A DNA stretch of 58,371 nucleotides from Bdellovibrionales bacterium RIFOXYC1_FULL_37_79 (GCA_001770015.1 MEQB01000013.1:1-58371); one strand, 5' to 3'. Counted from the stretch's first letter, positions 25,267 to 56,714 are shown. Made by a program: numbers and translations. The notes: generated from the letters alone by a model not told the origin.

Positions 25267-27981
25267 ATGCAGCATCATGAGCATATCCTGAAATTAAAAA
25301 AGTCCCATCAACCATATCATCATTTTACTTTCGAAAAAGTGAAACTGCAGCGTGGGTATTCCAATCGCATTCTACGCATTGACCTTACGAAAAAAGAGAC
25401 CAAAATTTTACCAGTCACCCAAGAAATGAAAGATCTTTTTGTGGGAGGTAAAGGTTTTGATATGTGGCTGACCTTCCAGGAAATTGATGAACATACCAAA
25501 TGGGATAGTGACAATAATCCGATTTGTTTTTCGGTAGGCCCGCTCGGGGGAACCACCTCTTTTCCTGGAGCTGGTAAAACCATCGTCACCGCCATCTCAC
25601 CTGCCACGGCTTCCATTATGGATTCCAACGTGGGCGGATACTTTGGCCCCTATCTCAAATTTGCCGGCTTTGATGCCATGATCATTGTGGGAAAAGCGAG
25701 TGTCGATTCAATTATCTACATTGATGCCGTCAAAGGCACCTTGTCCATTGAATCCGCTCCTCTTGAACAACTGGATTCTCATATCATTGCCGAAGATTTA
25801 ACGGACATGTACGCCGACGATGATCTCGATAAAAGAAATATTTCGGTGGTATCTGCCGGATCGGCCAGCGAACATTCCAGGATGGGACTATTAAACTTTT
25901 CATTTTTTGATTGGAGAAGAAATGTTGCCAGATTCAAACAGGCGGGCCGAGGTGGCATTGGTACAGTTTTTAGAAACAAAAAATTAAAGGCCATAGTGAT
26001 TAAAAACAATGGAATAACTCCGGCATGGACTATAACGGAGAGTAAGGTTGCCAAAAATACCAGGCTTTCCAAGATTATAGAGACCACTTGTAAAAAGGAA
26101 ATTAGTAAAATTGATGCCATTATAGCGAAATGGCATAATAATCCTGACTATTTAATAGAAATTATGCAGCACCTGATGCGTGAGTTTAAATTTATTTCCA
26201 AAACCACCATTGATCGACTGAATTTTCACTTGAAAATACCCAAGTCTTATATTTATCAAGTGGCCACTTTCTACGATTGTCTGGCCCTGGAACCCAAAGG
26301 TGAACAGACCATCCAGGTCTGTATGGGGCCTGGCTGTCACGCCAAGGGAGCGCAAACTGTGCTGGATACCTTTAAAAAGGAGCTTGGTATTTCAGAGGGA
26401 GAAACGACTCCTTGCCAAAAATACACCCTACTTGCCAGCAACTGTCTGGGGGCCTGTGACCAAGCGCCACTGGTAAAAATTAATGACCAACTGATCACCA
26501 AAGTAAATCCTATCAACGTTTCGGCCATTCTTAAGGGGGAATTTTTCAATGATACTTCCCTCGATACTCCTGAAATATTACAAATTTCAACCAACCATCC
26601 CGTCTGTGCGTGCGGTGGAGATAAACATTTCTCCACTTTCAAAAAATTACTCAAGGAAAACAATCCTGAAAAAATAATTGAGACCATTCGTGACTCAAGA
26701 TTGCAAGGCCGGGGTGGTGCTGGCTTTTTTACAGGTGATAAAATGCAGATGGTCTTTAACACCCACCGGGAAAACCAACTGGATTCGGTGGTGGTAGTCA
26801 ACAGTGCCATTTTTGAACTAGATCCACTCAACGTCATAGAGGGAATTCTCATTAGCGCCTTGGCGGTGCGGGCCAAGCTTGGTTTTATTTGTTATCGAAA
26901 TGAGCATTTACCCGCACTACTTAAAATGAATGATGCCATCAACTGGGCCAGATCTAAAAATTTCATTGGCAAAAATATCTTAGGAAGTAACTTTTCCTTT
27001 GATTTGAAAGTACGTCATGGTGCCGGTGGTTTTATCGTGGGTGAATCCAGTGCCCTCGTCCAAACCCTGATGGGAAAAGTGGGAGAACCCCAGGCCAAAT
27101 ATATAAAGCTGGCCCAATCTGGTTATAAGAAAAGACCAACTTTCATCAGTAATATTGAAACCATCGCCAATATTCCGCAGATCATGGAAAAAGGCGTTGA
27201 TTGGTTTAGAAAGATTGGCCATCATTCCAAAGGCACCAAACTGCTTTCCCTGTCCGGCGACGTCAAAAATCCTGGTTTCGTGGAGGCCCCTTTAGGAACC
27301 ACCATTAATGAAATAATTCAAAACGTAGGAGGAGGTATTACCAGTCCTAAAAAAAGAACCATAAAATTTGTCCAAGTAGGTGGTCCCACTGGCGGCTATC
27401 TCCCTTCCAATATGCTCGAGCTGAAAATTGATTATGATTCACTCAAAGAAGTTGGCGCCATCATGGGGTCTGGACTTATCAGTGTAAAAAATGATCGCAA
27501 ATGCTTGGTTGACTCGCTCCTTTATCAAATTACCTATCTTGCCGGCGAATCGTGTGGAAAATGCACTCCCTGTAGGGAAGGGCTCTATATGGCAAAACGA
27601 ATTCTGCACAATATCTCAAGAGGAAAAGGATCAAAAAATGATCTTGCTTTATTATCCGATATTGCGCAAACTTTACGTGAAACATCTTTTTGTCAATTTG
27701 GTAAGACTGCCAGCAATCCAATCCTTTCTGCCCTCAGGTATTTTGAACAAGAATTTTTTGAACACGTTGATGGGAAAATCTGTCGTTCTGGAGTTTGTAA
27801 AGAACTGACGCAATTTCATATCAATGATCAATGCACGGGCTGTACGTTATGTGCCAAAGTTTGTCCAACAGGCTGTATCACCTCAAGAAAAAAAGAGCTA
27901 CATATCATCGACCAACAAAAATGTATCAAATGCGGGGCCTGTTTTGAGGTCTGTAACTTTAAAAGCGTGGAGGTCAGATAA
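25267..27981 (+). CDS. AOR N-terminal domain fused to NuoE, NuoF and 2[4Fe-4S] ferredoxin
   Basis: A 904-aa multidomain redox protein. Residues ~28-246 are the AOR N-terminal pterin-binding domain (VGGKGFDMW, GPLGGTTSFPGAGK, SNVGGYFGPYLKFAGFDAMI). Residues ~268-422 are NuoE-like with [2Fe-2S] ligands C352, C357, C393, C397. Residues ~455-845 are NuoF-like with GRGGAGF (481-487), ESCGKCTPCR (C763, C766, C769) and C809 for a [4Fe-4S] cluster. Residues 850-900 carry two [4Fe-4S] ferredoxin motifs (C856-C866 and C886-C896). The NuoF loop NADEGDPGAFxDR is missing: NSAIFELDP runs straight into VIEGILISAL. GESS replaces GEET. FMN/NADH binding is therefore uncertain. The AOR half lacks domains 2-3, which lie in the next gene. 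The second gene overlaps by 1 nt (TAATG). Electrons could pass from the pterin site to NuoF or the ferredoxin. Confidence 0.92.
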   Translation: MQHHEHILKLKKSHQPYHHFTFEKVKLQRGYSNRILRIDLTKKETKILPVTQEMKDLFVGGKGFDMWLTFQEIDEHTKWDSDNNPICFSVGPLGGTTSFPGAGKTIVTAISPATASIMDSNVGGYFGPYLKFAGFDAMIIVGKASVDSIIYIDAVKGTLSIESAPLEQLDSHIIAEDLTDMYADDDLDKRNISVVSAGSASEHSRMGLLNFSFFDWRRNVARFKQAGRGGIGTVFRNKKLKAIVIKNNGITPAWTITESKVAKNTRLSKIIETTCKKEISKIDAIIAKWHNNPDYLIEIMQHLMREFKFISKTTIDRLNFHLKIPKSYIYQVATFYDCLALEPKGEQTIQVCMGPGCHAKGAQTVLDTFKKELGISEGETTPCQKYTLLASNCLGACDQAPLVKINDQLITKVNPINVSAILKGEFFNDTSLDTPEILQISTNHPVCACGGDKHFSTFKKLLKENNPEKIIETIRDSRLQGRGGAGFFTGDKMQMVFNTHRENQLDSVVVVNSAIFELDPLNVIEGILISALAVRAKLGFICYRNEHLPALLKMNDAINWARSKNFIGKNILGSNFSFDLKVRHGAGGFIVGESSALVQTLMGKVGEPQAKYIKLAQSGYKKRPTFISNIETIANIPQIMEKGVDWFRKIGHHSKGTKLLSLSGDVKNPGFVEAPLGTTINEIIQNVGGGITSPKKRTIKFVQVGGPTGGYLPSNMLELKIDYDSLKEVGAIMGSGLISVKNDRKCLVDSLLYQITYLAGESCGKCTPCREGLYMAKRILHNISRGKGSKNDLALLSDIAQTLRETSFCQFGKTASNPILSALRYFEQEFFEHVDGKICRSGVCKELTQFHINDQCTGCTLCAKVCPTGCITSRKKELHIIDQQKCIKCGACFEVCNFKSVEVR

Positions 27982-29996
27982 TGGAAACTAAAAAAATCAC
28001 CCTCACCATCAACGATATCGAAACCACTATCGTAAAGGGTACCACCCTTCTTAGTGCCATCAATAAATTAAATATCGATATCCCCACTCTGTGCCACCAC
28101 AAGGATCTGACTCCAAGTGGTAATTGCCGCCTGTGTGTTTGTGAAATTGAAAATAATGGAAAAAAAGAACTGGTGACCAGTTGTAATTATCCCATAATGA
28201 ATTCCATCAAAGTCGAAACGGAAAACGAAAAAATTAAAAAACATCGCCAGAACTTAGCTCTGATGTACCTAGGCCGTTACCCAAATGTTCCCATCATCCA
28301 AGAAATTGCCAGAAGATGTGAGGCCTTTGATAGCGACCTTTATAAGAGTGAACTTAGCGAAACATCCGCTAAGGCCTGTATCCTATGCGGAAGATGTATC
28401 AGGGCCTGCGAAGAATTTATCCAAGAAAAAATTATAAGCTTTGCCGGACGGGGTATCAACCGTCACCTCACAATGCCTTTTAGCGAAGTAGATCCCCACT
28501 GTGTAGGCTGCACCAGTTGTGCTTATGTGTGTCCCACCGGTGCCATTCAAATTGTTGATCAGATGAATAATCCAGCGAACCCCGAACTCATTCGTAACCA
28601 TGGCATGAAAGTCAATGCGGAGATGGCAAACCTTGACCCCTACCAATGCCGAATGCGTGAGGTAGGTACTGCTAACATCGTTGAAGTCATGGATAAATAC
28701 GACCTGCTACCGGTTCATAACTACAAATTCGGACAACACGTTGATACACCTAAAATTGATTCCAAAGTTATGAAAAAACATTATTTCACCCAAGGACATC
28801 CAGATCAATGCTGGCACGGCTGTTCCATGGCCTGTGCCAAAGCAGTGGATGGATTTAAACTAAAAACCGGGCCCTATAAGGGTCACAAAGTTTGCGTAGA
28901 TGGCCCTGAATATGAAACCGCTGGTGGTTGCAGTAATATGGGCTGTTTTGATATTGAATTTGTAATTGAATTCAACTTTTACTGTGACACTTATGGCATT
29001 GATACCATTTCGATGGGAACTACCATGGCCTTTGTGATGGAGGCCTTTGAGGCCGGTGTCATCACCACTAAAGATACGGGAGGCATAAAACTCAACTTTG
29101 GCGCTTGCCATGAAGTGCTAGAATGCCTTCATCAATTGTCAAAAGGTGAAGGCTTTGGAGTAGAAGTCGGTCAAGGGGTTAAGTTTCTCAAAGAAAAGTG
29201 GAGCAAACAAAAACCACAATTTAAAAGTTTTCTCTACGATATCGGAATGGAAGCTAAAGGCCTTGAATACTCCCAATATATGTGTAAAGAATCCCTGGCC
29301 CAACAAGCAGGTTATACGCTGGCCTTAAAAGGTCCTCAACACGATGAAGCCTGGCTCATCTTTATGGATATGGTTAACAACCAGATTCCTTCCTTCGAAG
29401 ATAAAGCTGAGGCACTTTACTACTTTCCACTTTTTAGAACCTGGTTTGGTTTACAAGGACTATGCAAAATCGTCTGGAATGATGTCTCCCCTGCTGATAA
29501 TAAAAAACATCCTCCTCAACAAGCAGCTAAAATTCCAGAACATGTGGATAATTACTGGAAATTTTTTGAAGGTATGACCGGCATTAAGCTGGATGAGGAA
29601 AAAATGCTGAATCAATCAGCTCGAGTTCATAACCTGCAAAAAATAATTGGTCTTATGTTAGGAAGAAATAAACTGATTGATGACATTCCTCCCTACCGGG
29701 CAGTTGGCCCGGTTACCAAAGAAGAATACGAATCCCGAAAGGAACGTTACGATAAGGAGTTAAAGGAAAAAATTGGAATTGAACCAACCTCGCTTTCTAT
29801 CGAGGAGAAAATGAGTAAAGTCAGGGAATACCGCATGAACCAATACCATAAAGTCATGCAAGCAGCTTTTAAACGCCGAGGCTGGGATCAATATGGCATT
29901 CCGACCGTTGAGCGCTTAAAGCAGCTGGGAATTGATAGGCCATTCTTTATCAAGATTGTAGAAAAGGCCAGACATGAAGCAGTGGAGTCCAACTAA
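27981..29996 (+). CDS. NuoG-like FeS module fused to AOR C-terminal domains
   Basis: A 671-aa protein. Residues 1-80 form a [2Fe-2S] domain with C38, C49, C52 and C68. Residues 130-190 carry two [4Fe-4S] motifs (C133-C143 and C174-C184), as in NuoG, but the HxxxCxxC cluster usual in NuoG is absent. From ~270 to the end lie AOR domains 2 and 3. C277, C281, C285 and C495 fit the AOR [4Fe-4S] ligands, although spacing CxxxCxxxC is one residue longer than the usual CxxCxxxC. GPEYET and DTISMGTTMAFVMEAFEAG are typical AOR text. With the AOR_N domain of the previous protein these would complete one tungstopterin active site. A 1-nt stop/start overlap (TAATG) leads into the ThiF-like gene. Confidence 0.92.
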   Translation: METKKITLTINDIETTIVKGTTLLSAINKLNIDIPTLCHHKDLTPSGNCRLCVCEIENNGKKELVTSCNYPIMNSIKVETENEKIKKHRQNLALMYLGRYPNVPIIQEIARRCEAFDSDLYKSELSETSAKACILCGRCIRACEEFIQEKIISFAGRGINRHLTMPFSEVDPHCVGCTSCAYVCPTGAIQIVDQMNNPANPELIRNHGMKVNAEMANLDPYQCRMREVGTANIVEVMDKYDLLPVHNYKFGQHVDTPKIDSKVMKKHYFTQGHPDQCWHGCSMACAKAVDGFKLKTGPYKGHKVCVDGPEYETAGGCSNMGCFDIEFVIEFNFYCDTYGIDTISMGTTMAFVMEAFEAGVITTKDTGGIKLNFGACHEVLECLHQLSKGEGFGVEVGQGVKFLKEKWSKQKPQFKSFLYDIGMEAKGLEYSQYMCKESLAQQAGYTLALKGPQHDEAWLIFMDMVNNQIPSFEDKAEALYYFPLFRTWFGLQGLCKIVWNDVSPADNKKHPPQQAAKIPEHVDNYWKFFEGMTGIKLDEEKMLNQSARVHNLQKIIGLMLGRNKLIDDIPPYRAVGPVTKEEYESRKERYDKELKEKIGIEPTSLSIEEKMSKVREYRMNQYHKVMQAAFKRRGWDQYGIPTVERLKQLGIDRPFFIKIVEKARHEAVESN

Positions 29997-30812: not shown

Positions 30813-32006
30813 GTGTGCAATATAATTTTTACTCCATTTAAAATTAACCATCTTACTATTAACAATCGTATCATTAGGGCAGCCACCTATGAGGGTTGCG
30901 CTGATGCTAACCAAGTTCCTCTTTTGTCCATGATCGGTTTTTATGAAGAACTTGCGAAAAATGAAGTGGGACTCATTATTACTGGATTTAACGCCACCTC
31001 ACAAGCTGGACGGGCGATCCAGCCAAGACAGGCCTCCATTCAAACGACTGAGCAAGTAAAAATGTGGAAAAAAGTGACCGACCGGGTACACCTCTATGAA
31101 TCAAAAATTTTTATGCAAATATCCCATGCTGGCCGACAAACTTTAAAAAAAGTGACCAACCGTAGAATTGTTGCCCCTTCCAGGATTGCCAGTCCCCTTT
31201 TTAGACAAACCCCCACCATCCTCAATAAAACCGAAATAAAAAATATTATTACAGAATATGCGACCGCTGCTTTAAATGCCAAAATGGCCGGATTTGATGG
31301 TGTGCAAATCCACAGTGCTCATGGATATTTAATTCATCAATTTCTTTCCCCCCATACCAATCAAAGAACCGACCAGTACGGCGGCAGTTATGGCAATCGA
31401 TTGCGATTTTTAAAAGAAATCCTAGTCGAAATAAAAAAACAATGTGGACTCACCTTTCCCACCATAATCAAACTAAGCCTTGGAGATGATTTCGGATACA
31501 CCGTTAATGATACTAGGGAATATCTCTGCCTTTTAAATGAATGCAGCGAAGTGGACGCTATCGAACTCTCTTACGGAACCATGGATCGGCCATTTAATAT
31601 CATCCGAGGAAATGCCCCTTTGGATCTATACTATCGCTTTTCACCCTTTTTCAAGGCCTACCCCGGTTTTTTAAAGCAACTAATTTTTCTACTGGTGAGC
31701 AAAAAACTCAAACGCAATCTGATGCCTTTTAATTTGAATTACAATTGGGAAAGTGCCAAAGAGATCCAAACACACTCTACCAAACCACTGTTTTTAACCG
31801 GAGGTATTCGCAAAGTCGCCGATATCCGCTCCATCCTGGAAAAAGGGTTTACCGCAGTCACCCTGAGTCGACCGTTTATCAGAGAACCTGAGTTGATGTT
31901 AAAATTTCGCTATCATTTAGCTGATGAATCCCAATGTATTAATTGTAATTTGTGTACCATTCATTGTGACTCACCCAAGCAGACCCACTGTTATTTACTA
32001 TCTTAA
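30813..32006 (+). CDS. Old Yellow Enzyme family flavoprotein with C-terminal Cys cluster
   Basis: An FMN TIM-barrel of 397 aa. Family blocks visible are NRIIRAATYEG, MQISHAGRQ, GFDGVQIHSAHGYLIHQFLSPHTNQRTDQYGG, and LTGGIRKVADI with VTLSRPFIREPEL for phosphate binding. The end has Cys spaced CINCNLCTIHC and a final Cys, resembling a [4Fe-4S] site as in 2,4-dienoyl-CoA reductase-type enzymes. These would pass electrons from FeS to FMN. GTG start at 30813, 17 nt after thiS, with a weak ribosome site. The substrate is unknown. Position after the AOR genes suggests it takes part in the same pathway, possibly reducing an enone or enoyl group. Confidence 0.88.
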   Translation: MCNIIFTPFKINHLTINNRIIRAATYEGCADANQVPLLSMIGFYEELAKNEVGLIITGFNATSQAGRAIQPRQASIQTTEQVKMWKKVTDRVHLYESKIFMQISHAGRQTLKKVTNRRIVAPSRIASPLFRQTPTILNKTEIKNIITEYATAALNAKMAGFDGVQIHSAHGYLIHQFLSPHTNQRTDQYGGSYGNRLRFLKEILVEIKKQCGLTFPTIIKLSLGDDFGYTVNDTREYLCLLNECSEVDAIELSYGTMDRPFNIIRGNAPLDLYYRFSPFFKAYPGFLKQLIFLLVSKKLKRNLMPFNLNYNWESAKEIQTHSTKPLFLTGGIRKVADIRSILEKGFTAVTLSRPFIREPELMLKFRYHLADESQCINCNLCTIHCDSPKQTHCYLLS

Positions 32007-45590: not shown

Positions 45591-46205
45591 GTGAGTAATT
45601 ATTTTTATATTTTTCTATTCATCCTTTCTCTAACCTTCTGGTGCCTGGGTTTTAGCTACATTCCCCAAAAAATTTCCCTACATGAACGTAAACAGTTAAC
45701 TTTTAGCTACGGATTATTTCAACCCGGCAACAACTGGGAAACCTCCTCCCATGTGGTCAATCGGGAACTACCTTCCACGGTGTATGGAACCCAAATCAAA
45801 GTGCGATACGAAAGTTATGATTTGGATTTTATCGACTACCGCATAGGTGCCGATGTGCAGGGAATTGCCGATAAAGATTTACTTTTTTCTGCCGTTTCCT
45901 TGGCATTTGAATTAACCAATAATCTCTATAACAAAAAAAAGCATCGAATCATCAGCGTCGGTACGTTCGCCTATTCACCCAGAACTGTGGTGATTGCCAG
46001 TGATGAACAATTAGAAGGCATCTCCTACAAGTATGGCCTGTCCTTTGAATGGGTTTATGCCATCTTTAAGACCTGGTCCATGAAAACCATGATTGGCTAT
46101 AACTACCAAAAGCTCGGAGAATTTGATTCCACATATTTTTTTGATCCAAGTTATATGACCATCAGAGGATTGGAAGCAGGTGTTGGACTAAACTACGTTT
46201 TTTAA
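45591..46205 (+). CDS. Putative small outer-membrane beta-barrel protein, 204 aa
   Basis: GTG start with an N-terminal hydrophobic signal (residues 4-22). The mature part alternates hydrophobic and polar residues and ends in YVF, with a terminal Phe as in outer membrane proteins. No known family. It converges on the giant RCC1 lipoprotein gene with a 4-nt overlap. Confidence 0.65.
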   Translation: MSNYFYIFLFILSLTFWCLGFSYIPQKISLHERKQLTFSYGLFQPGNNWETSSHVVNRELPSTVYGTQIKVRYESYDLDFIDYRIGADVQGIADKDLLFSAVSLAFELTNNLYNKKKHRIISVGTFAYSPRTVVIASDEQLEGISYKYGLSFEWVYAIFKTWSMKTMIGYNYQKLGEFDSTYFFDPSYMTIRGLEAGVGLNYVF

Positions 46206-48415
46206 TAGGCAATGGAATTTACGCTGACAGGTACATCACTATATAAATCAGGTGCGGTACTCGTTCCCAATTGTCCATAATCATTATTACCCCAACATTT
46301 TGCTCCGGTTTTCAAAAGAGCACAGGTATGATTACTTCCGGCCGTCAGAAAAATAACTTCCGAACCTGCCGTTAGACCGCTAACTTCAAGCGCATAAGGG
46401 GAACTGATGAGATTACCACTACCCAGTTGTCCGTAATCATTATTACCCCAGCATTTTACTGCACCACTGACTTGTAAGGCGCAGCTATGTTTTAATCCCG
46501 CAACCACCTGTACCACCTGGGTCAGTGGCGTGTCACTGGTATCAACATCGACCACCACCGGAGTCGTGCTATCACCTATGGCACTGTTGTTTCCCAGTTG
46601 CCCATCGGAGTCACTACCCCAGCACTTTACTCCTTCATTCACAATGATGCAGGCATGATTTCCACCAACACTAATCTGGTCGGCATTATTTCCACCGGCA
46701 ATCGGTACAGCGTAAAGTGCTTCCATATTAACCGTGTTATTTCCCCAGCAATAAGTTTGTTTGGTACTTCCAATAATAGCGCAACTATAATTTCCCCCAG
46801 CCGCCAGCTTATGAATCGTACCCACCGTACTTAAATTGGCAGCTCCTCTTAAAACAATGCGCGGAATATAAGACGAGATATCCTGATTGTCCCCAAGCTG
46901 CCCGTCTGATCCTTGTCCCCAGCACATGATTTCATTACCCACCTTGGCGCAAGTATGAGAACTACCGCTGGATATATCGGTCACTTGTGCCAGATTCACG
47001 GACGACGAATCCTGGACCGCCACTGGAGTGGAGCTGGCACTTAGTGCAGGGGAAACCCCCAACTTGCCCAGCGAATTATTACCCCAACAACGGGCCTCAC
47101 TATTATAGGCAGCACAAGAAAAATCCGTCCCGGTGGAAAGACCTCTGATCACGCCATTTTCTATCTGCAAGACTTGTACTGGATTGGTGCTATTGGACGC
47201 ACTCCCTTGTCCCAGTCGACCTGAACCGCCATTTCCAAAACAATATGTTCCACTTTTTAAATAGACACATGAATGCTCATCCCCGGCTGTAATCCTGATT
47301 CCACTCATGGTAAGTACATAATCGGGTGAATTTTTATTGACGCTTATACCGTTACCGAGTTGATAGAAATTATTTTTTCCAAAACATCTCGCACCACCAC
47401 TGGTATTTATGCAGGTATGACTTCCCCCTGCAAAGACACCTTGGGCCTTATTATTGGCGGTAAATCCGGTTACATCGGTAGGAATATTTTTATATACGTT
47501 GGTGGAATCCCCTAGCTGGCCTTCAACATTTCGTCCCCAACACTTCACTCCCATACTCAGCAAGGCACAGGTATGATCATCACCTGCGGTAATCTGTACC
47601 ACCCCGGCATTTGCTCCCAACCCAGACACAAAATCACCAACCACGGGTACGGTTTTCATACTGACCGCATCTGAACCACTGCCCAGTTGTCCATACACAT
47701 TACTACCAAAACACTGGACACCACCATCATAAAGTGCACAGGTATGTGATCGTCCAAGTGCCATTAGATAAGCTTTTTTACTGGAAGATAATCCGGTGAT
47801 CAGCATGGGCGCAATTTGATAATTACCACTGCTGCCAATTCCAAGCTGCCCTTGATTATTTCGTCCCCAACAATAAAGATCCCCTTTTTGAACAGCACAA
47901 GCATGTTCGGCCCCGGCATAAATTGCCTCGACATCACTTAAAATGGCCGCATCCAATAGCGAAGCATACAGGCGATAAGTATCGCTTGAATTAATCCCCA
48001 GTTGTCCATAAACATTATCACCCCAACAGTAAACATTACCCGAGGTAGTGAGGGCACAACTGAAATACTTGCCAACGGCAATTTGCTTGATATTGTTAAT
48101 CGCATTACCGGTACTATCCACCACCGCCGATGATAATGCCGTTCTAAATGGTTCGTTGGTATTGACGCCAAGTTGGCCGGTCGTACTCCCCGATTTTTGA
48201 TTACTACCAAAACAATAAACCAATCCAGATATCAAAGCACAGGTGTGATCAGCTCCCGGGCCTACTTGGGTAGCATTGGCCAGACTTAAATTCTGTTTCG
48301 GATAACTTCTTAAAGTGGTCGTGCCATCCCCTAGCTGATAAAGGGCATTGTCTCCCCAGCCATTCACTCGCTCTTTAAAGATGGCAAAATTATGATCCTC
48401 CCCAGGATACAAAGC
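46202..48415 (-). repeat. RCC1-encoding tandem repeat array
   Basis: About 14 divergent ~155-nt repeats encode the RCC1 blades. Two copies near the 3' end (46268-46303 and 46424-46459) still share about 32 of 36 nt, indicating a recent duplication or gene conversion. Confidence 0.7.
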
Positions 48416-51400
48416 CAGGGCCTTTTGATAATATTTGGTAACCAGTATAGACTGATTATTAGCGGTATCACTTTGCGTAGCGGTGATCACCACCAATCCA
48501 TCTGGATATTCATCCAAAGTGTCCACATCATAACTCCACACCCCGCCCGCACAATTGGCACTTAAGGCCTGGGTATGACTGCCACCATCTGAAATACTAA
48601 TCGTCACTTCGACTGATCCATCCGGTGGATTTGTACATGTACCTGATAAACTGAAAGGTTCTGCCACATTTGTTCCTTGGGATGCCTTGATATAAGTATT
48701 CATACCCGGACTATCAATGGTTACCTCCGGTGCGATGGTATCAATGATGATATTTCTGCCTGCTAAGGTCGTGGGCATAGCAATCGAGTAGTTTGTCATG
48801 AGATTGCCACCTATATCGACCATCGTTGCCCCATTCATATGAAAGGTGGAAGCCGCCACTCCGAAAACTTCCAAAGGATTGGCCCAATCACCTTGGGTCA
48901 CCGTATAATTACAAGTCATTTTAGTTAAAACCGTCGCATGCAAGATACAAGTAATCTCTTTTTCCAAACCGCTGACATTAAGGCCCAGCGTAGGTGTGCC
49001 TCCCGCAGGCGCTTGCATACTGGCAGAAAAAGTTATCTCGATGGGAATAATTTCCCCGACGGTGTATGATCCTCCCATTTGATGAGTGGCCCCCGCATCC
49101 ACATCCACCACAGTGGGAGGAATGGTACTGACGTATAAATCCTTATTGCCCGCAAGAGAGGTAGGCAAAGATACATCGGGAAGATCCAAACTGGCAGTAA
49201 AAATCTGGGCATCATAAATAGTGGTCAAAGTTCCACTAGCAAGCACCAAAGAGCCCGTAGCCTCATAATTTAGATCGGCATTGAAATCCCCCGCCTGTAC
49301 GATGTAATTACACAGTAAAATAGAGGCATCACTTAAATCCTGGATACAATCTATGTATCTGGTGGTATCCGGACTGGCCACAGTATTAACCACCAAATTC
49401 AGCTGAACCGAGGCGTTGCTTGACAATATTAAATCATGAGAAAAATCAACCTTAATCTCAATCACATCATTTAAAATATAAATTCCATTCAAATTATCAG
49501 AGGTGACCACGTTGACCGCAGCGGTAGTCCCATCCACAATCATGGTATTGGGCATGAAAGGAGTGGTTAAATTCAAATTGGCCAGGTTTCCATGCAGGTC
49601 CCTGATATCACCTCTTAGGGCGTTCGAGTTCAAATAGCTCAGATATCCTACGATGGTTATATCGTTAGTACCAACCGTATAACTACATAGAATAGACTTA
49701 TTATCAGTCGGATGATTAACACAATTGATAGTTTTTCCCGTGGCCCCAATATTCAAATCCAAAGTTACCGCACTCACCGGCCCAATGACTTCATGGAATG
49801 AAACGGTGATATCTATGGTCTGTCCCAGATATATTTTATCTGGAGCAATCACAGAGGGGGCTGCCACGACGCTAGTGACATAAGGTCTGGTTCCATCAAT
49901 AAGCGTGGAAAGCCCCAGGCTTGGGATATGCAAATCAGCATAATTGATCCCGTTAACATCTCGAATGGTCCCGTTGATTCCGTTATTAGAGACCAATGAG
50001 CTACTTGAAGAAATGGAAATAGTTTGTCCGGCACTGGCAAGGCCTTCGCCGTCACCATCTTTCACTTGATAAGAAAATCTAACGGTATCTCCTACCGCCT
50101 GAACAAACTGGGCAATCCCAATAGCATTTGCCCCACCCACGTTAAGATATAAAAGTGGATTACCCGTGACAGATATATTTTGATCAAACGTAAAATCCAA
50201 CAACAAATTATATCCATCATCTATACTGATCAGTGACGGAGTGGAGACCACGGTTACGCCGGTAATGTGAGGAACCAAACCATTTATCACGATAGCATCG
50301 TTGCTGATGGTTCCTGCCGGATCAAAGGTGGTATAATCCAGATAGTTGCCCGCAGTATCAAAGATGGCATGCGTCCCGGAAATCGTCAGCGGATTGGTGG
50401 CAGAAAAAGTCAGCGGATTAGCAATATCATTAGGTAAAACCGTATAAGAAAAAGTCAACACCTTCGAATTGGAACCACTGGTATAGGTGGCCACTCTCCC
50501 ATTACTTAAATTAATTCCCAAAAATCCACTGCTGATGTTGACTTCCTCATTTAGTTCCATTTCCAAGCGCACGATCTGTCCGACCGTAAAGGTTTGAGTC
50601 GCACCGGTCGTGGGCCCTTGCGGTCTGATTTCCACCACCTCCGGTGAAAAAGTATCAATACGAATATCTTTTAAAAATTTAAGAGAAAAACCGGTCTCTG
50701 GATCAGGCAGATAACCAGCTACCGGAACAGGAACACTAAAAAGTGAATTGCCCCTGGCATCCCTAATATCTCCACCGCTGGAATCCAGGGAAGTAATACT
50801 AAGATAATTTAAATCGCAAGCTGAATCCGTAAATTCAGTTACACATAAAATGGGATCAAGTCCAATCCGATCACCACTCATAATTTGATAATGGAAGATC
50901 AACGTATTGGAATTTGCCACATTATTAAAGGTGGCACGACGGACCACCCCACTCGTATTTAAAAGAAGTGCAGGGGTCCCAATGACCGTAATGTCTTCTG
51001 AAAAAACTAATGATATAGGAATAATACCTGCCCCTAATCCTAAATTGGAATTAGGTCCATATTTGGCATTGGCAATCGTAGAGGTTACTTGAGTAACGGT
51101 AGGTCTTTGGGCATCGATGGTCATATTTTTATTAACCGCAAGTGAACCGGCCCCACTAACCCCGTCCCCGGGATTAAATAATTGCAAATCAATGATTTCC
51201 AGCTGATTGCCATTTACATCTCTCATGGCAGAACCATTAAACACCAGTGCCTGAGCATTTAAATAATCCAGTCTGCCACTGGTTCGATGCGAAGTGGTGT
51301 CCCCTGCTTTGACCCGATAATCAAACTCTAGGATGGACGTGCCAGAGCCCCCGATATAAGAAGCCGTCCCACATAAGGTAATATCAGGATTGGTATCCAA

Positions 51401-53908
51401 AGTCAGATACGGCGTGCCTGACACTGTATTAACAATAACCACATCATCAAAAGTAATTCGAATAGTAATCAGATCATTCTCCAAATAGTTTCCATCAATA
51501 TTGGGAGAGGTAATATTGGTGATCGCAGGAATTTTTCCATCCACCGTAACTGGCAACTGCAATGAAACTGGATTACTTAAAGATCCCAAAGCTGAAGGAG
51601 TTGGAAAACTTCCCAGCAAATTACCATACAAATCCCCCACGTTGATAAGTGGAGTGGCGCCAAGATAGTCCAAATGATCAACCCCATTATTATAATCCCC
51701 CTTTAAAACCGTGTATGGGCAGGTAAAAGTGGTTAACGGATTCACATGCACATAAGTACATTCCACATATTTGGAGGTTAACAGGTTATTATAAATATTA
51801 AGTAACAAACTTGGAGTACCGGTTACATAAAGCGGAGTAGCCGAGGAGGTTATTTCAATAGTAACCAGATCGCCGATAATTTTAGTTCCCACATCCACCG
51901 TGGTAATTTCATCAATGGCAGGCCTGGTGGTACCAAGGGTAACTAATTTACTGCGAATTCCAGTGGGAGTTAACCCATCATAAGTATCGCTTGAAGAATT
52001 GCCCGCATCATCTTCTAGCGTGGCACCTACCAGGCTAAAAATACTGGCGCTGGCAGTGTCAATATCCAGATAGGGTGCCTGGGCCCCAACCACTATGTCC
52101 CCATCGCTTGCACTATAACGAAAAATAATTTGATTGCTGCCACTACCACTGACATAAGTAGCAGTCAAAGCCGGTGCTACATTGATATAGATTTCCGGAA
52201 CCCCGGTAACCACCACATTTTGATCAAACTCAGCAATAATTTCCACCAGGTCATCAATCCCCACCAGTGCCCCGGTAGCAGTATTGGTATAGACACCGAT
52301 CAAATGAGGCCGGTCACCATCAACATCAACGTTTCTTAAAAAATCAATGGCCGTCGAAGAGGTGGGATGAGGTAAAAGCTGACTGAGATTTTCACCATTA
52401 TCGGTCCTCATGGTGCCACCGTTAAATTTTAAAGGCCCATTGGCCGGCACTACCATATCATTAGCGATATAGGATAGAGAGTATCCGATGGAAAGATCAC
52501 CCTCCTCTATGGTATAGCTAAAGTGCAGTAAACTGCTTCCACTCCCACCCACAAAGGGTGCCCTCGCCGTATTATTGATACCATCTGATACTTGAAGTTC
52601 CAGATAAGGACTTCCCGTGACAATAATGTCCCGGCTAGTCTCCAGAAAAATATTAATGGTCTGACCTAATATATATGTGCCATCCAGTTCACTTATATAA
52701 CCCCTAACCACCCTGGCAACCCGGGCATTGACGGGGATATTAGCAGCGTAAAGGCCACTGGTGGTGGGAGCAGGTAATGTTAACGATAAACTATTATTTC
52801 CCACATCAACGAGCACTCCACCATTTAAAGTGAGTGAATCCACCGTCACATATTGTAGTCTGGCAGCATAATCCTCGACTTGTACGGTATAGATAAAATT
52901 CAAACTGGTAGAGGTACTGGTGCTTGGATCAAACACCGCATATCTTTGATTAGGAGTGACGTTAAGTCCGATTCTTGGATAACCTAGAACAACATTCCAT
53001 GAAATTGGTTCCGAAGTGTTAACCTGAATATGGATTTGATCCCCCTGATTTCTCATTTGTCCGGCAGTAGCAGTGGTGGTCACACTTAAAATAGTAGGAG
53101 CACCCGTATCGATGATAATATTCTGATTATCAGATAAGGAATTGCCTCCGCCGATGGCAGGTAAAGCGGCGACAGTGGAAAAAGCGTTTCCGGCCACATC
53201 TTTAAAGGTTCCTCCCAGCGCACTGGTGGATGCATATTCCAGATCTAAAGTACTGTCTAAAATACTCACCGTATAATTAAAGACTAAAATAGAAGTTCCA
53301 CTCCCTGAAACATATATACCCTTGGCACCCGCTGAAGCATTCAAAAGCAACACCGCACTTCCAGAAAGATACACTGGTTCACTAAAGGCGATTTCAATTT
53401 TAATAACATCCGCCAGTCCGTAGGTACCATCCCCGGTGGAGGAACTGACATTTAAAATAAAAGGGGACACCGTATCCTTTCTGGTACTAAGGGTAACTGT
53501 TCTGGCCTGGCCTAGGACATCGGAGTGATTGGCCACGATCCGCACAGTACCCTGGGCCAGTGTAGTAAGATCCAGTTCTCTGCCTGCCCCGGTGGACCAG
53601 ACTTTATTGTTACAAATAATATTCCCATTAGGGGACCGTACCGTACCATTAACATCAATGGCCTGGACCAGCACCAACGCCCCATTTTCAGAGCACACTC
53701 CGGCCAACGGAAAATTGGTATAATTGACAGCATTAATATAAGTGGCAGAACTGGTTATCGACAATTTGGTATCATCTTCCGATCCGGGAACTCTTGCATT
53801 AAATGGTTTGTTTGGTACACAGGAAATAAGTAGGGACAGACTGATAACCATCAACCAGATAAGCCGACTTAGGGATGCATAACCTTTGAGATGGTTATAA
53901 TTAATCAA
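46202..53908 (-). CDS. Giant lipoprotein: 12 Ig-like repeats plus 14 RCC1 repeats
   Basis: 2568 aa. TTG start at 53908 with a strong TAGGAGT. Lipobox LISC near residue 30. One Ig-like domain (~45-145) leads into 12 imperfect ~130-aa repeats, each with a pattern like FSExVxVxGxPxLxLN, a GSGTSILxFxYTV strand and DxxGN. A second single Ig-like domain (~1720-1820) follows. The last ~735 residues hold 14 RCC1 repeats (CWGxNxxGQLG). Fourteen fits two seven-bladed propellers. Thirteen of the repeats carry a paired Cys in the pattern CAxxxxxxxxCW/FG. It probably sits on the outer membrane surface as an adhesin or binding scaffold. A role in prey contact is plausible but not shown. Confidence 0.88.
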   Translation of the reverse strand: MINYNHLKGYASLSRLIWLMVISLSLLISCVPNKPFNARVPGSEDDTKLSITSSATYINAVNYTNFPLAGVCSENGALVLVQAIDVNGTVRSPNGNIICNNKVWSTGAGRELDLTTLAQGTVRIVANHSDVLGQARTVTLSTRKDTVSPFILNVSSSTGDGTYGLADVIKIEIAFSEPVYLSGSAVLLLNASAGAKGIYVSGSGTSILVFNYTVSILDSTLDLEYASTSALGGTFKDVAGNAFSTVAALPAIGGGNSLSDNQNIIIDTGAPTILSVTTTATAGQMRNQGDQIHIQVNTSEPISWNVVLGYPRIGLNVTPNQRYAVFDPSTSTSTSLNFIYTVQVEDYAARLQYVTVDSLTLNGGVLVDVGNNSLSLTLPAPTTSGLYAANIPVNARVARVVRGYISELDGTYILGQTINIFLETSRDIIVTGSPYLELQVSDGINNTARAPFVGGSGSSLLHFSYTIEEGDLSIGYSLSYIANDMVVPANGPLKFNGGTMRTDNGENLSQLLPHPTSSTAIDFLRNVDVDGDRPHLIGVYTNTATGALVGIDDLVEIIAEFDQNVVVTGVPEIYINVAPALTATYVSGSGSNQIIFRYSASDGDIVVGAQAPYLDIDTASASIFSLVGATLEDDAGNSSSDTYDGLTPTGIRSKLVTLGTTRPAIDEITTVDVGTKIIGDLVTIEITSSATPLYVTGTPSLLLNIYNNLLTSKYVECTYVHVNPLTTFTCPYTVLKGDYNNGVDHLDYLGATPLINVGDLYGNLLGSFPTPSALGSLSNPVSLQLPVTVDGKIPAITNITSPNIDGNYLENDLITIRITFDDVVIVNTVSGTPYLTLDTNPDITLCGTASYIGGSGTSILEFDYRVKAGDTTSHRTSGRLDYLNAQALVFNGSAMRDVNGNQLEIIDLQLFNPGDGVSGAGSLAVNKNMTIDAQRPTVTQVTSTIANAKYGPNSNLGLGAGIIPISLVFSEDITVIGTPALLLNTSGVVRRATFNNVANSNTLIFHYQIMSGDRIGLDPILCVTEFTDSACDLNYLSITSLDSSGGDIRDARGNSLFSVPVPVAGYLPDPETGFSLKFLKDIRIDTFSPEVVEIRPQGPTTGATQTFTVGQIVRLEMELNEEVNISSGFLGINLSNGRVATYTSGSNSKVLTFSYTVLPNDIANPLTFSATNPLTISGTHAIFDTAGNYLDYTTFDPAGTISNDAIVINGLVPHITGVTVVSTPSLISIDDGYNLLLDFTFDQNISVTGNPLLYLNVGGANAIGIAQFVQAVGDTVRFSYQVKDGDGEGLASAGQTISISSSSSLVSNNGINGTIRDVNGINYADLHIPSLGLSTLIDGTRPYVTSVVAAPSVIAPDKIYLGQTIDITVSFHEVIGPVSAVTLDLNIGATGKTINCVNHPTDNKSILCSYTVGTNDITIVGYLSYLNSNALRGDIRDLHGNLANLNLTTPFMPNTMIVDGTTAAVNVVTSDNLNGIYILNDVIEIKVDFSHDLILSSNASVQLNLVVNTVASPDTTRYIDCIQDLSDASILLCNYIVQAGDFNADLNYEATGSLVLASGTLTTIYDAQIFTASLDLPDVSLPTSLAGNKDLYVSTIPPTVVDVDAGATHQMGGSYTVGEIIPIEITFSASMQAPAGGTPTLGLNVSGLEKEITCILHATVLTKMTCNYTVTQGDWANPLEVFGVAASTFHMNGATMVDIGGNLMTNYSIAMPTTLAGRNIIIDTIAPEVTIDSPGMNTYIKASQGTNVAEPFSLSGTCTNPPDGSVEVTISISDGGSHTQALSANCAGGVWSYDVDTLDEYPDGLVVITATQSDTANNQSILVTKYYQKALALYPGEDHNFAIFKERVNGWGDNALYQLGDGTTTLRSYPKQNLSLANATQVGPGADHTCALISGLVYCFGSNQKSGSTTGQLGVNTNEPFRTALSSAVVDSTGNAINNIKQIAVGKYFSCALTTSGNVYCWGDNVYGQLGINSSDTYRLYASLLDAAILSDVEAIYAGAEHACAVQKGDLYCWGRNNQGQLGIGSSGNYQIAPMLITGLSSSKKAYLMALGRSHTCALYDGGVQCFGSNVYGQLGSGSDAVSMKTVPVVGDFVSGLGANAGVVQITAGDDHTCALLSMGVKCWGRNVEGQLGDSTNVYKNIPTDVTGFTANNKAQGVFAGGSHTCINTSGGARCFGKNNFYQLGNGISVNKNSPDYVLTMSGIRITAGDEHSCVYLKSGTYCFGNGGSGRLGQGSASNSTNPVQVLQIENGVIRGLSTGTDFSCAAYNSEARCWGNNSLGKLGVSPALSASSTPVAVQDSSSVNLAQVTDISSGSSHTCAKVGNEIMCWGQGSDGQLGDNQDISSYIPRIVLRGAANLSTVGTIHKLAAGGNYSCAIIGSTKQTYCWGNNTVNMEALYAVPIAGGNNADQISVGGNHACIIVNEGVKCWGSDSDGQLGNNSAIGDSTTPVVVDVDTSDTPLTQVVQVVAGLKHSCALQVSGAVKCWGNNDYGQLGSGNLISSPYALEVSGLTAGSEVIFLTAGSNHTCALLKTGAKCWGNNDYGQLGTSTAPDLYSDVPVSVNSIAY

Positions 53909-54136: not shown

Positions 54137-54562
54137 TTACTTCAAGCCTATGACCAATTTTTCTTGGCACACCATCAGGTTTTTATCCTTTCGGCCTAGA
54201 TACTCTTTTCTTACTTTTAAAGTGATTGCATCAATGGGACACACCTCTTCGCAGACAAAACAGCTAAGACATCGACTATAATCAATATTCATTTTGACCT
54301 CCTGATGGTGTACAAGTTTCACTTCTATACAACCACTAGGACATGCCCTCTCACAAATTTTACAACCGTTGCAAATGATTTTATTTTTTTGATTCACCAC
54401 GAGAGTCGGCAAACTTAAAACCCTTTGGTTATGTCGATTGCCTGTAACGGGTTTTATTTTGCCTAAAAAAAGAGATTTTATAAAAGTGCTCATCAATTTT
54501 AATATTTTTAAAACCGCACTCCCAAAACTATTTATTTTAAAATCACCAATATGAGGAATCAT
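54137..54562 (-). CDS. NuoI-like 2[4Fe-4S] protein
   Basis: A 141-aa NuoI-type protein. Two ferredoxin motifs are C64, C67, C70, C74 and C98, C101, C104, C108. The N-terminal amphipathic stretch matches NuoI. It would pass electrons between NuoG-type and NuoB clusters. Last gene of the nuoB-nuoCD-nuoI unit, 11 nt after nuoCD. No membrane-arm gene follows. Confidence 0.85.
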   Translation of the reverse strand: MIPHIGDFKINSFGSAVLKILKLMSTFIKSLFLGKIKPVTGNRHNQRVLSLPTLVVNQKNKIICNGCKICERACPSGCIEVKLVHHQEVKMNIDYSRCLSCFVCEEVCPIDAITLKVRKEYLGRKDKNLMVCQEKLVIGLK

Positions 54563-54573
54563 ATATTTCTCAC

Positions 54574-56256
54574 TTAACGATCCACCTCATGAATATTTAT
54601 ATCAAAAGATCGCAAAAGTAGCGGTAGCCGTTTAATATTTTCATTTTTAATAATATCTGGAAACGATGACAGCAATTTATAAGATGGCCCGCTTAACTTG
54701 AATCGATACGGCAAAAAATCTCCGAGCGTTTTAACAAAAATACCGATAGATCCTCTAGCATTTTCTATTCTTGAAAAATGCTCTCTGGCCAAAAGTTGCG
54801 GTCCATGACTGTAATATGCATCATATTTTTGAAAATTGATCTCTGACTCATTTAATTTATCTTTGTCAACCGGTCCCCCATTTTCTAGTTTGACGAAATA
54901 CTGGCCACTGGGGATATTATCTAAAATTTGGGAAATAATTCGCACCGACTCATAAACCTCTCTAATTCGGACATAATAACGGTCATAAGCATTTCCATAT
55001 GCGCCCAGTGGCACCTCAAATTCAACTTCATGATACAGATAATAGGGGGCATTTTTCCTTAAATCATATTTTATACCACATGCCCTCAAATTCGGTCCAT
55101 CCAGGCCATATTTCATAGCATCTTTGGCCGTTATCGCGTTGGTTTTGAGTTGATCAATCCATTGCATGGATTTAGTCAACTGCTTCTCCAGTTGCCTGAC
55201 TTTTTTTTCAAACTTGCCGATTGATTGCAAAATAAAAACCACTGTTTCTCTTTTAATGTCCTGGTAAAAACCGCCAAATCGATGAATATTTCTGGCATGG
55301 TTAAAAAGTCCCAATTGGAACATGTACTCATCAAACATTTGTAATATATCCTTCATAAACCAGGTGGCCACATCGTTTAATGAAAACTCCAGCATTCGCT
55401 TTATCGTTTGTAAATGATCATTGATCCGGTCCATTTCAAAATACAGCATCCTTAAAGCAGCGATCCGGTCATTAATGGGTATTTGGAGAATTTCTTCCAC
55501 CGTTTTACACCAGAGAATCGGTAACGAATTTCCAGAAAGACATTTGTATTTATGTAATAGTTGTAAAACGCTATGAGCATTCAACTCTTCAAACTTTTTT
55601 TCAAGACCCAGATGATGATAACCAATTTCAATTTTTGAGGCACCTATGCAATCTTCCTTAAGCTCCGTCAATAGGCGAAATTGATTATTGATGAAGGGGT
55701 GAAAAGGACCAAAACTAAACCATTGCTTAGTAGAATTCACCGTCGGCACCAAGACACCGTCAATCTTCAGGGACTTTCTATAAGTAGGCTCCTTAATCAC
55801 TGCACCAGTCTCATTTTTCCTAAGTACCAAGCCTTGAACGTTATCATGAGTAAGTAACTGTTGATGACGAGTGGAAGTATTTTTAATCCCCAAAAATTCA
55901 AAAATCTCTCTTAAATACCAGTCGCCGGTCATCCACAAGTTGGAAAAATCACAAAGGGGTTCATCGCTTGTCAAACTGGTCTTAAGAAATATTATTTGCG
56001 AGTCAACTGGTCGTTCCAGGATAAAGAGCAGTTCAAAATCACCCTGAGCTTGTTTGACCGCCGCAGAGTAAGCAATCACATCCACCAATTTCAAAAACTG
56101 ATATCGTTCTTTTAATATTTTCAAACTTTCAAGCAAATTTTTATGTTTAATATTAAAAGTACAATATCCTTCGCGCTCGGTGGACACCTCACATTCGATT
56201 AAAAGGTTAAACTCTTTAACCAGGATTTCTTTTGAATATTCAAAGGTCCAATTCAT
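54574..56256 (-). CDS. NuoCD-like fused subunit
   Basis: 560 aa. Residues 1-150 are NuoC-like, 185-560 NuoD-like, as in fused NuoCD. NuoD text is clear: FGPFHPF, DRINDHL, GLDGPNLRACGIKYDLRKNAPY, GNAYDRYYVRIREVYESVRII, and the SFDINIHEVDR end. The second His of the quinone site (GPQHPxxHG) is replaced by Asn (HPFINNQ). The site of the quinone Tyr (in LDY) aligns to Cys in KYKCLSG. NiFe ligands (CxxC pairs) are absent, so it is neither a usual quinone reductase nor a hydrogenase. Its nuoB partner ends at the shared base 56256. Confidence 0.87.
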   Translation of the reverse strand: MNWTFEYSKEILVKEFNLLIECEVSTEREGYCTFNIKHKNLLESLKILKERYQFLKLVDVIAYSAAVKQAQGDFELLFILERPVDSQIIFLKTSLTSDEPLCDFSNLWMTGDWYLREIFEFLGIKNTSTRHQQLLTHDNVQGLVLRKNETGAVIKEPTYRKSLKIDGVLVPTVNSTKQWFSFGPFHPFINNQFRLLTELKEDCIGASKIEIGYHHLGLEKKFEELNAHSVLQLLHKYKCLSGNSLPILWCKTVEEILQIPINDRIAALRMLYFEMDRINDHLQTIKRMLEFSLNDVATWFMKDILQMFDEYMFQLGLFNHARNIHRFGGFYQDIKRETVVFILQSIGKFEKKVRQLEKQLTKSMQWIDQLKTNAITAKDAMKYGLDGPNLRACGIKYDLRKNAPYYLYHEVEFEVPLGAYGNAYDRYYVRIREVYESVRIISQILDNIPSGQYFVKLENGGPVDKDKLNESEINFQKYDAYYSHGPQLLAREHFSRIENARGSIGIFVKTLGDFLPYRFKLSGPSYKLLSSFPDIIKNENIKRLPLLLRSFDINIHEVDR

Positions 56257-56714
56257 TATTCCAACTCTTTACTTTTTTTCAAAATCAAATCATCTAAATT
56301 TGCCATAAAATCCTCCATGGCGTTTGCATCTACCGGACAACCGGTCAAATAATAGTCCACTGTGATAAACCGTTCGACTCCAGTTAAAGCATTATAACCA
56401 TTAAAGGCTCCCGCATTGGATGCACAATTACCCAGGGCAACCACTATTTTAAAATCAGGCATATCTGCATAAATTTTTAATAAAACATTTAACAAAAGTG
56501 GATTGATTATTCCGTGGATAAACAAATAGTTTGCCTGTCTGGGACTATCAACAATCTTCAAGGTATAGTTTGCCTGCGCAAGCAACGCCCTTAATTCGGT
56601 GGATAAGTCCTCCTGCACACAGCATCCATTACCAAAAACCACGGCATTGATATTTTTCCGGGTACTCCAATTTTTTATGCTTTCAATCATTATGTCCGAC
56701 CGCCCATGTCCCAA
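56256..56714 (-). CDS. NuoB-like [4Fe-4S] subunit
   Basis: A 152-aa NuoB/PSST-family protein that carries cluster N2. Ligands are GNGCC (C31, C32), GNCASNAGAF (C97) and TGCPVDANAM (C126). SPRQAN matches the family's SPRQAD. ATG at 56714 follows the preceding lipoprotein gene after 3 nt. An ATG at 56690 is an alternative. It forms an operon with nuoCD and nuoI. Confidence 0.87.
   Translation of the reverse strand: MGHGRSDIMIESIKNWSTRKNINAVVFGNGCCVQEDLSTELRALLAQANYTLKIVDSPRQANYLFIHGIINPLLLNVLLKIYADMPDFKIVVALGNCASNAGAFNGYNALTGVERFITVDYYLTGCPVDANAMEDFMANLDDLILKKSKELE

Follow-up and report, generated by a model that had tools for sequence, protein, structure and literature searches.

Can two neighbouring genes, each holding a different part of an aldehyde oxidoreductase (AOR) fused to modules of the complex I type, encode one enzyme? 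The question is raised by a stretch of DNA of 58,371 nt from Bdellovibrionales bacterium RIFOXYC1_FULL_37_79 (the window; GCA_001770015.1, MEQB01000013.1:1-58371), in which the proteins P1 (904 aa) and P2 (671 aa) are encoded by ORFs whose stop and start overlap as TAATG (Table 1). To our knowledge, every characterised AOR or tungsten oxidoreductase (WOR) is a single chain. The reading preferred here, to which we give a probability of about 75%, is that P1 and P2 together are one tungsten-type aldehyde oxidoreductase, the catalytic subunit of which was cut by an insertion at the linker between domain 1 and domains 2-3, and which, in the branch that includes the window, passes its electrons to ferredoxin without bifurcation.

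Table 1. Features of the divided AOR genes and the gene that follows them; positions are counted from the first nucleotide of the window
Feature	Position	Strand	Basis
Gene 1 (P1), AFOR_N - NuoE - NuoF - 2x[4Fe-4S]	25267..27981	+	ORF, Pfam
AFOR_N, AOR domain 1, pterin/Mg side	25366..26007	+	PF02730; aligns with Pf AOR (1aor) 5-210
NuoE-like [2Fe-2S] domain; ligands C352, C357, C393, C397 all four present	26110..26535	+	PF01257, motif positions
NuoF-like domain; keeps GRGGAGF and the NADH_4Fe-4S cluster	26629..27771	+	Pfam, PDB sequence match
Site where the ADEGDPGAFMDR flavin/NADH loop is deleted in-frame (N512/S513)	26800..26805	+	Alignment of 20 split loci
C-terminal 2x[4Fe-4S], B3/B4-type ferredoxin-like domain	27823..27963	+	Pfam, cofactor table
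Gene 2 (P2), NuoG-like FeS module - AFOR_C	27981..29996	+	ORF, Pfam
NuoG-like module; [2Fe-2S] C38/C49/C52/C68 and two [4Fe-4S]	27990..28550	+	Pfam, motifs
Junction NNPANPELI, P2 aa 196-204; mark of the insertion point	28566..28592	+	Aligns with interdomain linker of unsplit relatives
AFOR_C, AOR domains 2-3; catalytic and [4Fe-4S] residues	28608..29933	+	PF01314, fold comparison, invariant columns
ThiF-like E1 adenylyltransferase, 200 aa	29996..30598	+	Profile match; TAATG-coupled to gene 2

By Pfam, the domain order is AFOR_N, NuoE, NuoF, NADH_4Fe-4S and 2x[4Fe-4S] in P1, and a NuoG-like FeS module and then AFOR_C in P2; an earlier reading made from the sequence alone (the sequence-only reading) had described both fusions in these terms. 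In P1, AFOR_N (PF02730) is matched over residues 34-247 (E = 4e-48), the NuoE-type 2Fe-2S thioredoxin fold (PF01257) over 282-423 (1e-37), Complex1_51K over 474-637 (2e-19) and NADH_4Fe-4S over 753-833 (1e-26), together with SLBB and two Fer4 matches; in P2, Fer2_4 is matched over residues 4-82, Fer4 at about 131-190 and AFOR_C (PF01314) over 210-651 (1e-85). The main matches in both proteins lie above the curated Pfam cut-offs and all are far beyond chance. In the PDB, the NuoF part of P1 and the NuoG part of P2 find their best sequence matches in chains B and A, respectively, of the bifurcating WOR of Acetomicrobium mobile (9mqx_B and 9mqx_A); a His-Cys cluster motif was not seen in the NuoG-like module of P2. 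The ThiF-like gene lies 3′ of AFOR_C in 14 of the 23 split loci described below (among the matches listed, the window counted), and its role is probably maturation of the pterin cofactor. Downstream of it, the window encodes an old-yellow-enzyme-type flavoprotein (30813-32006), which has the same place in the congener locus L027 and not in L028.

AORs carry two DXXGL(C/D) motifs as their pterin motifs; the first is kept here as DTYGID and the second reads GLQGLC, its D replaced by G among the sequences compared. P1, which by sequence covers residues 5-210 of Pf AOR, keeps the signatures of the pterin/Mg side (GPLGGT, SNVGGYFGP, AGRGGIG). The other side is found in P2: T230, Y311, E312 and Y433 align with T243, Y312, E313 and Y427 of Pf AOR, and H454, placed via the alignment with 8c0z, corresponds to H448, the second-shell residues T243, E313, Y427 and H448 (Pf AOR numbering) all being matched. 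C277, C281, C285 and C495 are the cysteines of the [4Fe-4S] cluster, with a first spacing of C-x3-C instead of C-x2-C, and both catalytic and cluster residues of P2 are invariant across a 30-sequence alignment. In single-chain structure predictions (mean pLDDT about 76; 76 for P2), the P2 model is superimposed from residue 196 onwards on residues 207-619 of Pf FOR (1b25; Z 27.1, 2.6 Å over 391 residues), from residue 188 onwards on 203-605 of Pf AOR (1aor; Z 25.9) and from residue 196 onwards on 208-604 of A. mobile WorL (Z 25.3); it covers AOR 203-619 only. The P1 model matches NuoEF-type proteins with Z up to 35, a match that the NuoEF part dominates, with AFOR_N judged by sequence.

Because P1 and P2 cover complementary parts of an AOR, the active site would form in a pocket between the two chains. 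Between the window and its congener, dN/dS is 0.03 for AFOR_N and 0.04 for AFOR_C, and 0.095, 0.085 and 0.067 for NuoE, the FMN part of NuoF and NuoG, respectively (dS is near or above 1, which makes the ratios rough); few parts of the operon are as constrained as the AOR halves, which are under strong purifying selection. Since the residues of what is one site in known AORs are divided between P1 and P2, and since both halves are constrained, a functional enzyme should need both chains, as had been proposed for each half.

How the parts may have come together, and how they may work, can be pictured as follows. A nuoE-nuoF-nuoG (worC-worB-worA) cassette would have entered an ancestral worL at the linker, whereby AOR domain 1 would have been left in front of NuoE(-NuoF) in one protein and domains 2-3 behind NuoG in the other; association of NuoE, NuoF and NuoG, as in complex I and HydABC, would bring the AOR halves together around the tungsto-bis-pterin. 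There, an aldehyde (or similar substrate) would be oxidised, and the electrons would pass from the AOR [4Fe-4S] cluster to the clusters of the fused NuoG and on to the [4Fe-4S] cluster of NuoF. In most members of the family they would then be bifurcated between NAD+ and ferredoxin at FMN, like those of the A. mobile WOR; in the window branch they would most likely leave via the C-terminal 2x[4Fe-4S] to ferredoxin, with no bifurcation. In this scheme, the domains, the constancy of the split site, the conserved residues, the purifying selection and the lost loop are observed; assembly of the two-chain site, this organism's metal, the substrate and the electron acceptor are what we infer. A bolder version can be put forward only tentatively: with the tungstopterin site at the interface and the whole bifurcation core nested between the halves, NAD-driven movement of NuoE/NuoF could act mechanically on the pocket in members with the full set of cofactors, while the window branch would be secondarily flavin-free and, as genes for pterin synthesis were not detected, may use scavenged cofactor.

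The ferredoxin exit is suggested by what NuoF has lost. In the window it is without the NADEGDPGAFMDR flavin/NADH loop, a loss common to L027 and L028; these three have an in-frame gap of 11 residues, spanning ADEGDPGAFMD(R), when 20 split loci are aligned. From what is known of NuoF/Nqo1, we take this loop to be the flavin/NADH-binding one. The window branch is also without the B5 [2Fe-2S] domain, only 26-32 residues lying between NuoE and NuoF; in full-cofactor members, about 160-200 residues with four or more Cys are found there. Of the B2 ligands, the window keeps His and Cys (His and two Cys in all), with S at the C/T position; this position is S or A in the window, L027 and L028, and most other members have B2 complete. 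A full set of cofactors is seen in L042, L050-L057, L063, L065, L066 and L097: these keep the NADEG loop, the NuoE [2Fe-2S], a Cys-bearing N-terminal NuoF domain, the C-terminal 2x[4Fe-4S] and the B2 signature of His, Cys and Cys or Thr, which is a mark of bifurcating BfuB (PMC9304861); by these features, they should be bifurcating WORs. NuoF has been eroded repeatedly, with the AOR halves and NuoG left intact: the loop is lost in L060, the loop, the NuoE cysteines and the C-terminal clusters are lost in L059 and L061, and the whole flavin (FMN) domain is lost in L064. A WorS-like ferredoxin is encoded just upstream in L061.

It is unlikely, if conceivable, that the window complex is still NAD(P)-linked or bifurcating, with flavin still bound by NuoF although the loop is deleted, as it would be in relatives with the full set of cofactors. 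The window retains GRGGAGF, the B1 cluster, His and two Cys of B2, the [2Fe-2S] of NuoE and the clusters at the C-terminus, the NuoF fold is intact in the predicted model, and the FMN-domain part evolves under purifying selection (dN/dS 0.085); further, loss of the FMN loop is no proof of lost NAD linkage, and a single change of a B2 ligand is by itself a weak sign. Against this, the 11-residue deletion removes the loop from the window, L027 and L028 alike, B5 is missing and the C/T ligand of B2 is replaced, and comparable erosion is seen in L059, L060, L061 and L064. Because the loop is lost, NuoF of the window should not be presumed to work as a diaphorase; ferredoxin-linked, non-bifurcating aldehyde oxidation is to be expected in its branch. 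We infer that NuoE and NuoF have turned into scaffold and wire, with an exit to ferredoxin via the C-terminal clusters in the window's enzyme, and the remaining NuoE/NuoF part could hold AFOR_N against NuoG-AFOR_C.

Tungsten is the likely metal of the family, because a gene for the tungstate-binding protein WtpA lies beside three split loci and one with a WtpA-like start is found in the genome G354. The three loci are from Krumholzibacteriota (L052, L054, L056); the gene is oriented divergently to the split AOR and its product is matched as WtpA above the curated cut-off, and in L056 WtpB-, WtpC- and ModE-like genes come next. In G354, the gene adjoins moeA, a moaA-like gene and moaC (WtpA and MoaA were read by eye). 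In the window's own genome (95.8% complete), profile searches found no MoaC, MoeA, MoaE or WtpA, and no MoaA (PF06463; TIGR02666 only under its cut-off); in the congener G127 (85% complete), no MoaC, MoeA or MoaE was found. Absence of MoaE alone is not telling, because it was not found in G064, G062 and G354 either, where MoaC and MoeA are present, and one assembly gap hardly explains the loss of both MoaC and MoeA, because in G064 they lie on different contigs. Either the genus takes up pterin, or its pathway is divergent, or the two metagenome-assembled genomes (MAGs) share gaps; it is possible that molybdopterin synthesis was lost and the cofactor is taken up.

These absences (MoaA, MoaC, MoeA and WtpA in the window's genome, MoaC and MoeA in the congener) would also suit proteins that are an iron-sulfur electron-transfer complex, with AOR halves that make no pterin enzyme in this genus. 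Such a relic is improbable: catalytic residues and those of the pterin side are intact, constraint is strongest on the AOR halves (95% and 94% identity; dN/dS 0.03-0.04 against 0.067-0.095 for NuoE, NuoF-FMN and NuoG), and further AOR genes are retained in the genome. Three AOR-family loci are present there. Two have full-length genes (L029:6511-8238 and L030:5062-6942; C22 and C19 of the genome); the second resembles archaeal GAPOR (E = 1e-100, under the curated cut-off). A complete AOR in the same genome had been named beforehand as something that would weaken the case for the split enzyme; two such genes do exist, but the split pair is still strongly conserved and not explained away by them, and the constraint on it argues against a relic beside two redundant full AORs.

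The same architecture, or a three-gene form of it, is found in G127 (same genus), G064 and G354. P2 is 91% identical in the same-genus genome and 74% in a same-family genome; in another family of the phylum, where NuoF has its own gene, identity is 67% over AFOR_C. Among close relatives the pair is rare: of 129 genomes of the family, 3 carry it, and of 369 searched in the phylum, 4. About 85,000 species genomes were scanned and the best 80 loci taken; domain mapping of the set assembled here shows at least 23 distinct split loci, each in a separate genome, in about nine phyla; at least 19 are beyond the window's phylum, and 3 of 19 are on contigs that end before AFOR_N. The matches listed come from Bdellovibrionota, Myxococcota, Bacillota, Sumerlaeota, Krumholzibacteriota, Aminicenantes, Eiseniibacteriota, Elusimicrobiota and a proteobacterium; thus the split and fusion are kept in relatives, as asked of Bacteriovoracia, but are not special to that group. 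Among the matches listed, the layout AFOR_N-NuoE-NuoF / NuoG-AFOR_C is seen in 11 of 23 split loci and AFOR_N-NuoE / NuoF / NuoG-AFOR_C in 7; the remaining five are variants or lie on contigs too short to tell. NuoG-AFOR_C is one chain at every split locus, AFOR_N comes first wherever the contig reaches it, and the split point is the same interdomain linker at every locus with both halves on the contig. The phylum-mixed branching of the trees points to horizontal transfer; a plasmid search with P2 returned ordinary AORs and NuoG/HydA-type matches only, none over more than 80% of P2.

All named split carriers are MAGs, but an assembly chimera, or a frameshift cutting one long gene, is hardly credible, as the same junctions recur in at least 23 separate genomes, the reading frames are open with starts and stops coupled by TAATG, and each AOR half is on a different NuoEFG-type module with no interrupted reading frame. 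The contig is not chimeric, because its architecture recurs in G127, G064 and G354 and in at least 19 loci of other phyla; the joining of two loci that the sequence-only reading had allowed for is rejected by this recurrence. AFOR_N and AFOR_C are both recovered by their profiles.

An origin by insertion is indicated by the unsplit relatives. The other 59 loci of the set (among the matches listed) have an unsplit AOR, mostly of 710-720 aa and about 57% identical over AFOR_C; no NuoE/NuoF match was found in the stretch fetched around them, and at 24 of the 59 there is a 4Fe-4S ferredoxin-like (WorS-like) match, mostly just upstream. GRGG at the end of domain 1 and MRxxGT at the start of domain 2 are separated by 57-58 residues (54 of the 59 could be measured). 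In the split genes, AFOR_N reaches that same linker, AFOR_C opens with a matching NNPxDPxLI, and the linker is occupied by the NuoE-NuoF-NuoG block in the order worC-worB-worA; because both halves meet at the same linker sequence, little or nothing of the AOR was lost or duplicated. That gene order is known from Class IV operons (PMC13328260), and since AORs outside this group are unsplit (PMC13328260, and general knowledge), the split is read as an insertion into worL. A single insertion of a nuoE-F-G (= worC-B-A) cassette would be the simplest history, and the unsplit clade is likely the ancestral form. The split loci are one clade in the AFOR_N tree (SH-aLRT 99.5). In a first AFOR_C tree, L097 grouped with unsplit AORs; with the split rows held together the likelihood was higher (p-AU 0.84), and one clade is not rejected, so that both half-trees would fit a single origin. 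Two independent splittings, to which that position of L097 would have pointed, were considered and dropped, since a single clade is favoured by the AU test and recovered for AFOR_N. An origin from Class IV WORs of the A. mobile type is unsupported, the catalytic halves being much nearer to the unsplit relatives.

Members of that unsplit clade (e.g. L074, L088, L090 of Alkaliphilus transvaalensis, L105, L122) share C-x3-C-x3-C, QHDEAW and the AFOR_C identity of about 57% with the split proteins, but are one chain in a Class II-like layout; we know of no characterised member. Conserved catabolic genes were not seen beside the split loci. L074 adjoins sarcosine-oxidase-alpha/beta-like genes (family-tested), and similar-looking genes lie there in L088 and L105, as judged by position and sequence start; the lead from these three hints at an amine- or amino-acid-derived aldehyde as substrate.

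Of known systems, the Class IV bifurcating WORs (WorABCSL; A. mobile 9mqx; Eubacterium limosum ElWOR1) share the AOR unit and NuoE/NuoF/NuoG-type WorC/B/A, and the WorA, WorB and WorC modules are present in the window as fused domains. There, WorL is one chain and has a separate partner, WorS, that carries [4Fe-4S] clusters (PMC13328260); in the window it is divided between two chains, joined to WorC(-B) in one and to WorA in the other, AFOR_C shares only about 23% identity with 9mqx_D, neither the FMN loop nor B5 is present, and no WorS-like gene is adjacent in the window, L027 or L028. In its working, the split enzyme would resemble an AOR/WOR and, in the members with all cofactors, a bifurcating WOR of Class IV. 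AFOR_N and AFOR_C are both present, but on separate ORFs and not on the one polypeptide by which WorL is defined. Because of this, and because an adjacent WorS, the FMN loop and B5 are all lacking, the split enzyme is filed as a WOR variant and not as a Class IV member. A census of 4,064 WorL selected proteins with both domains together (PMC13328260); split proteins would be missed by it, because both domains were required in one protein. AorABC of Aromatoleum aromaticum (8c0z; reviewed in PMC6365974, PMC12096430) has the AOR catalytic fold (Z 23.6) and conserved second-shell residues. Benzoyl-CoA reductase BamB-I (Geobacter; BamBC 4z3w) is similar in that an AOR-type BamB goes with NuoEFG-like BamGHI, but BamB is a single chain and its fold is less similar to P2 (Z 15.7 versus 27.1 for Pf FOR); the split enzyme is not counted among the Bam enzymes, since AOR and FOR match it better than BamB does and no set of Bam-type genes lies beside it. 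The catalytic AorB of AorABC is likewise a single chain, unfused to NuoEFG-type modules.

No description of the split layout was found in the open-access papers searched (most subscription journals were outside the search), which accords with the sequence-only reading, to which no such described system was known; the split AOR seems to be an undescribed variant within the known tungsten oxidoreductases. If the split site is active, it would be a natural two-component tungsten enzyme, the halves of which could be expressed and mixed separately, and a rare handle on the loading of a bis-pterin site and on the coupling of substrate oxidation to bifurcation. The series from the full bifurcation module of most members, through members without the loop (window, L060), to one in which the flavin domain is missing altogether (L064) would show which parts of the bifurcating core are dispensable.

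Elsewhere in the window, NuoI-, NuoC/D-fused- and NuoB-like genes at 54137-56714 (minus strand) resemble a partial complex I-type operon; they adjoin a gene for a protein of 537 aa without any Pfam match (56718-58331). An ORF of 2568 aa on the minus strand (46202-53908) encodes many RCC1 repeats.
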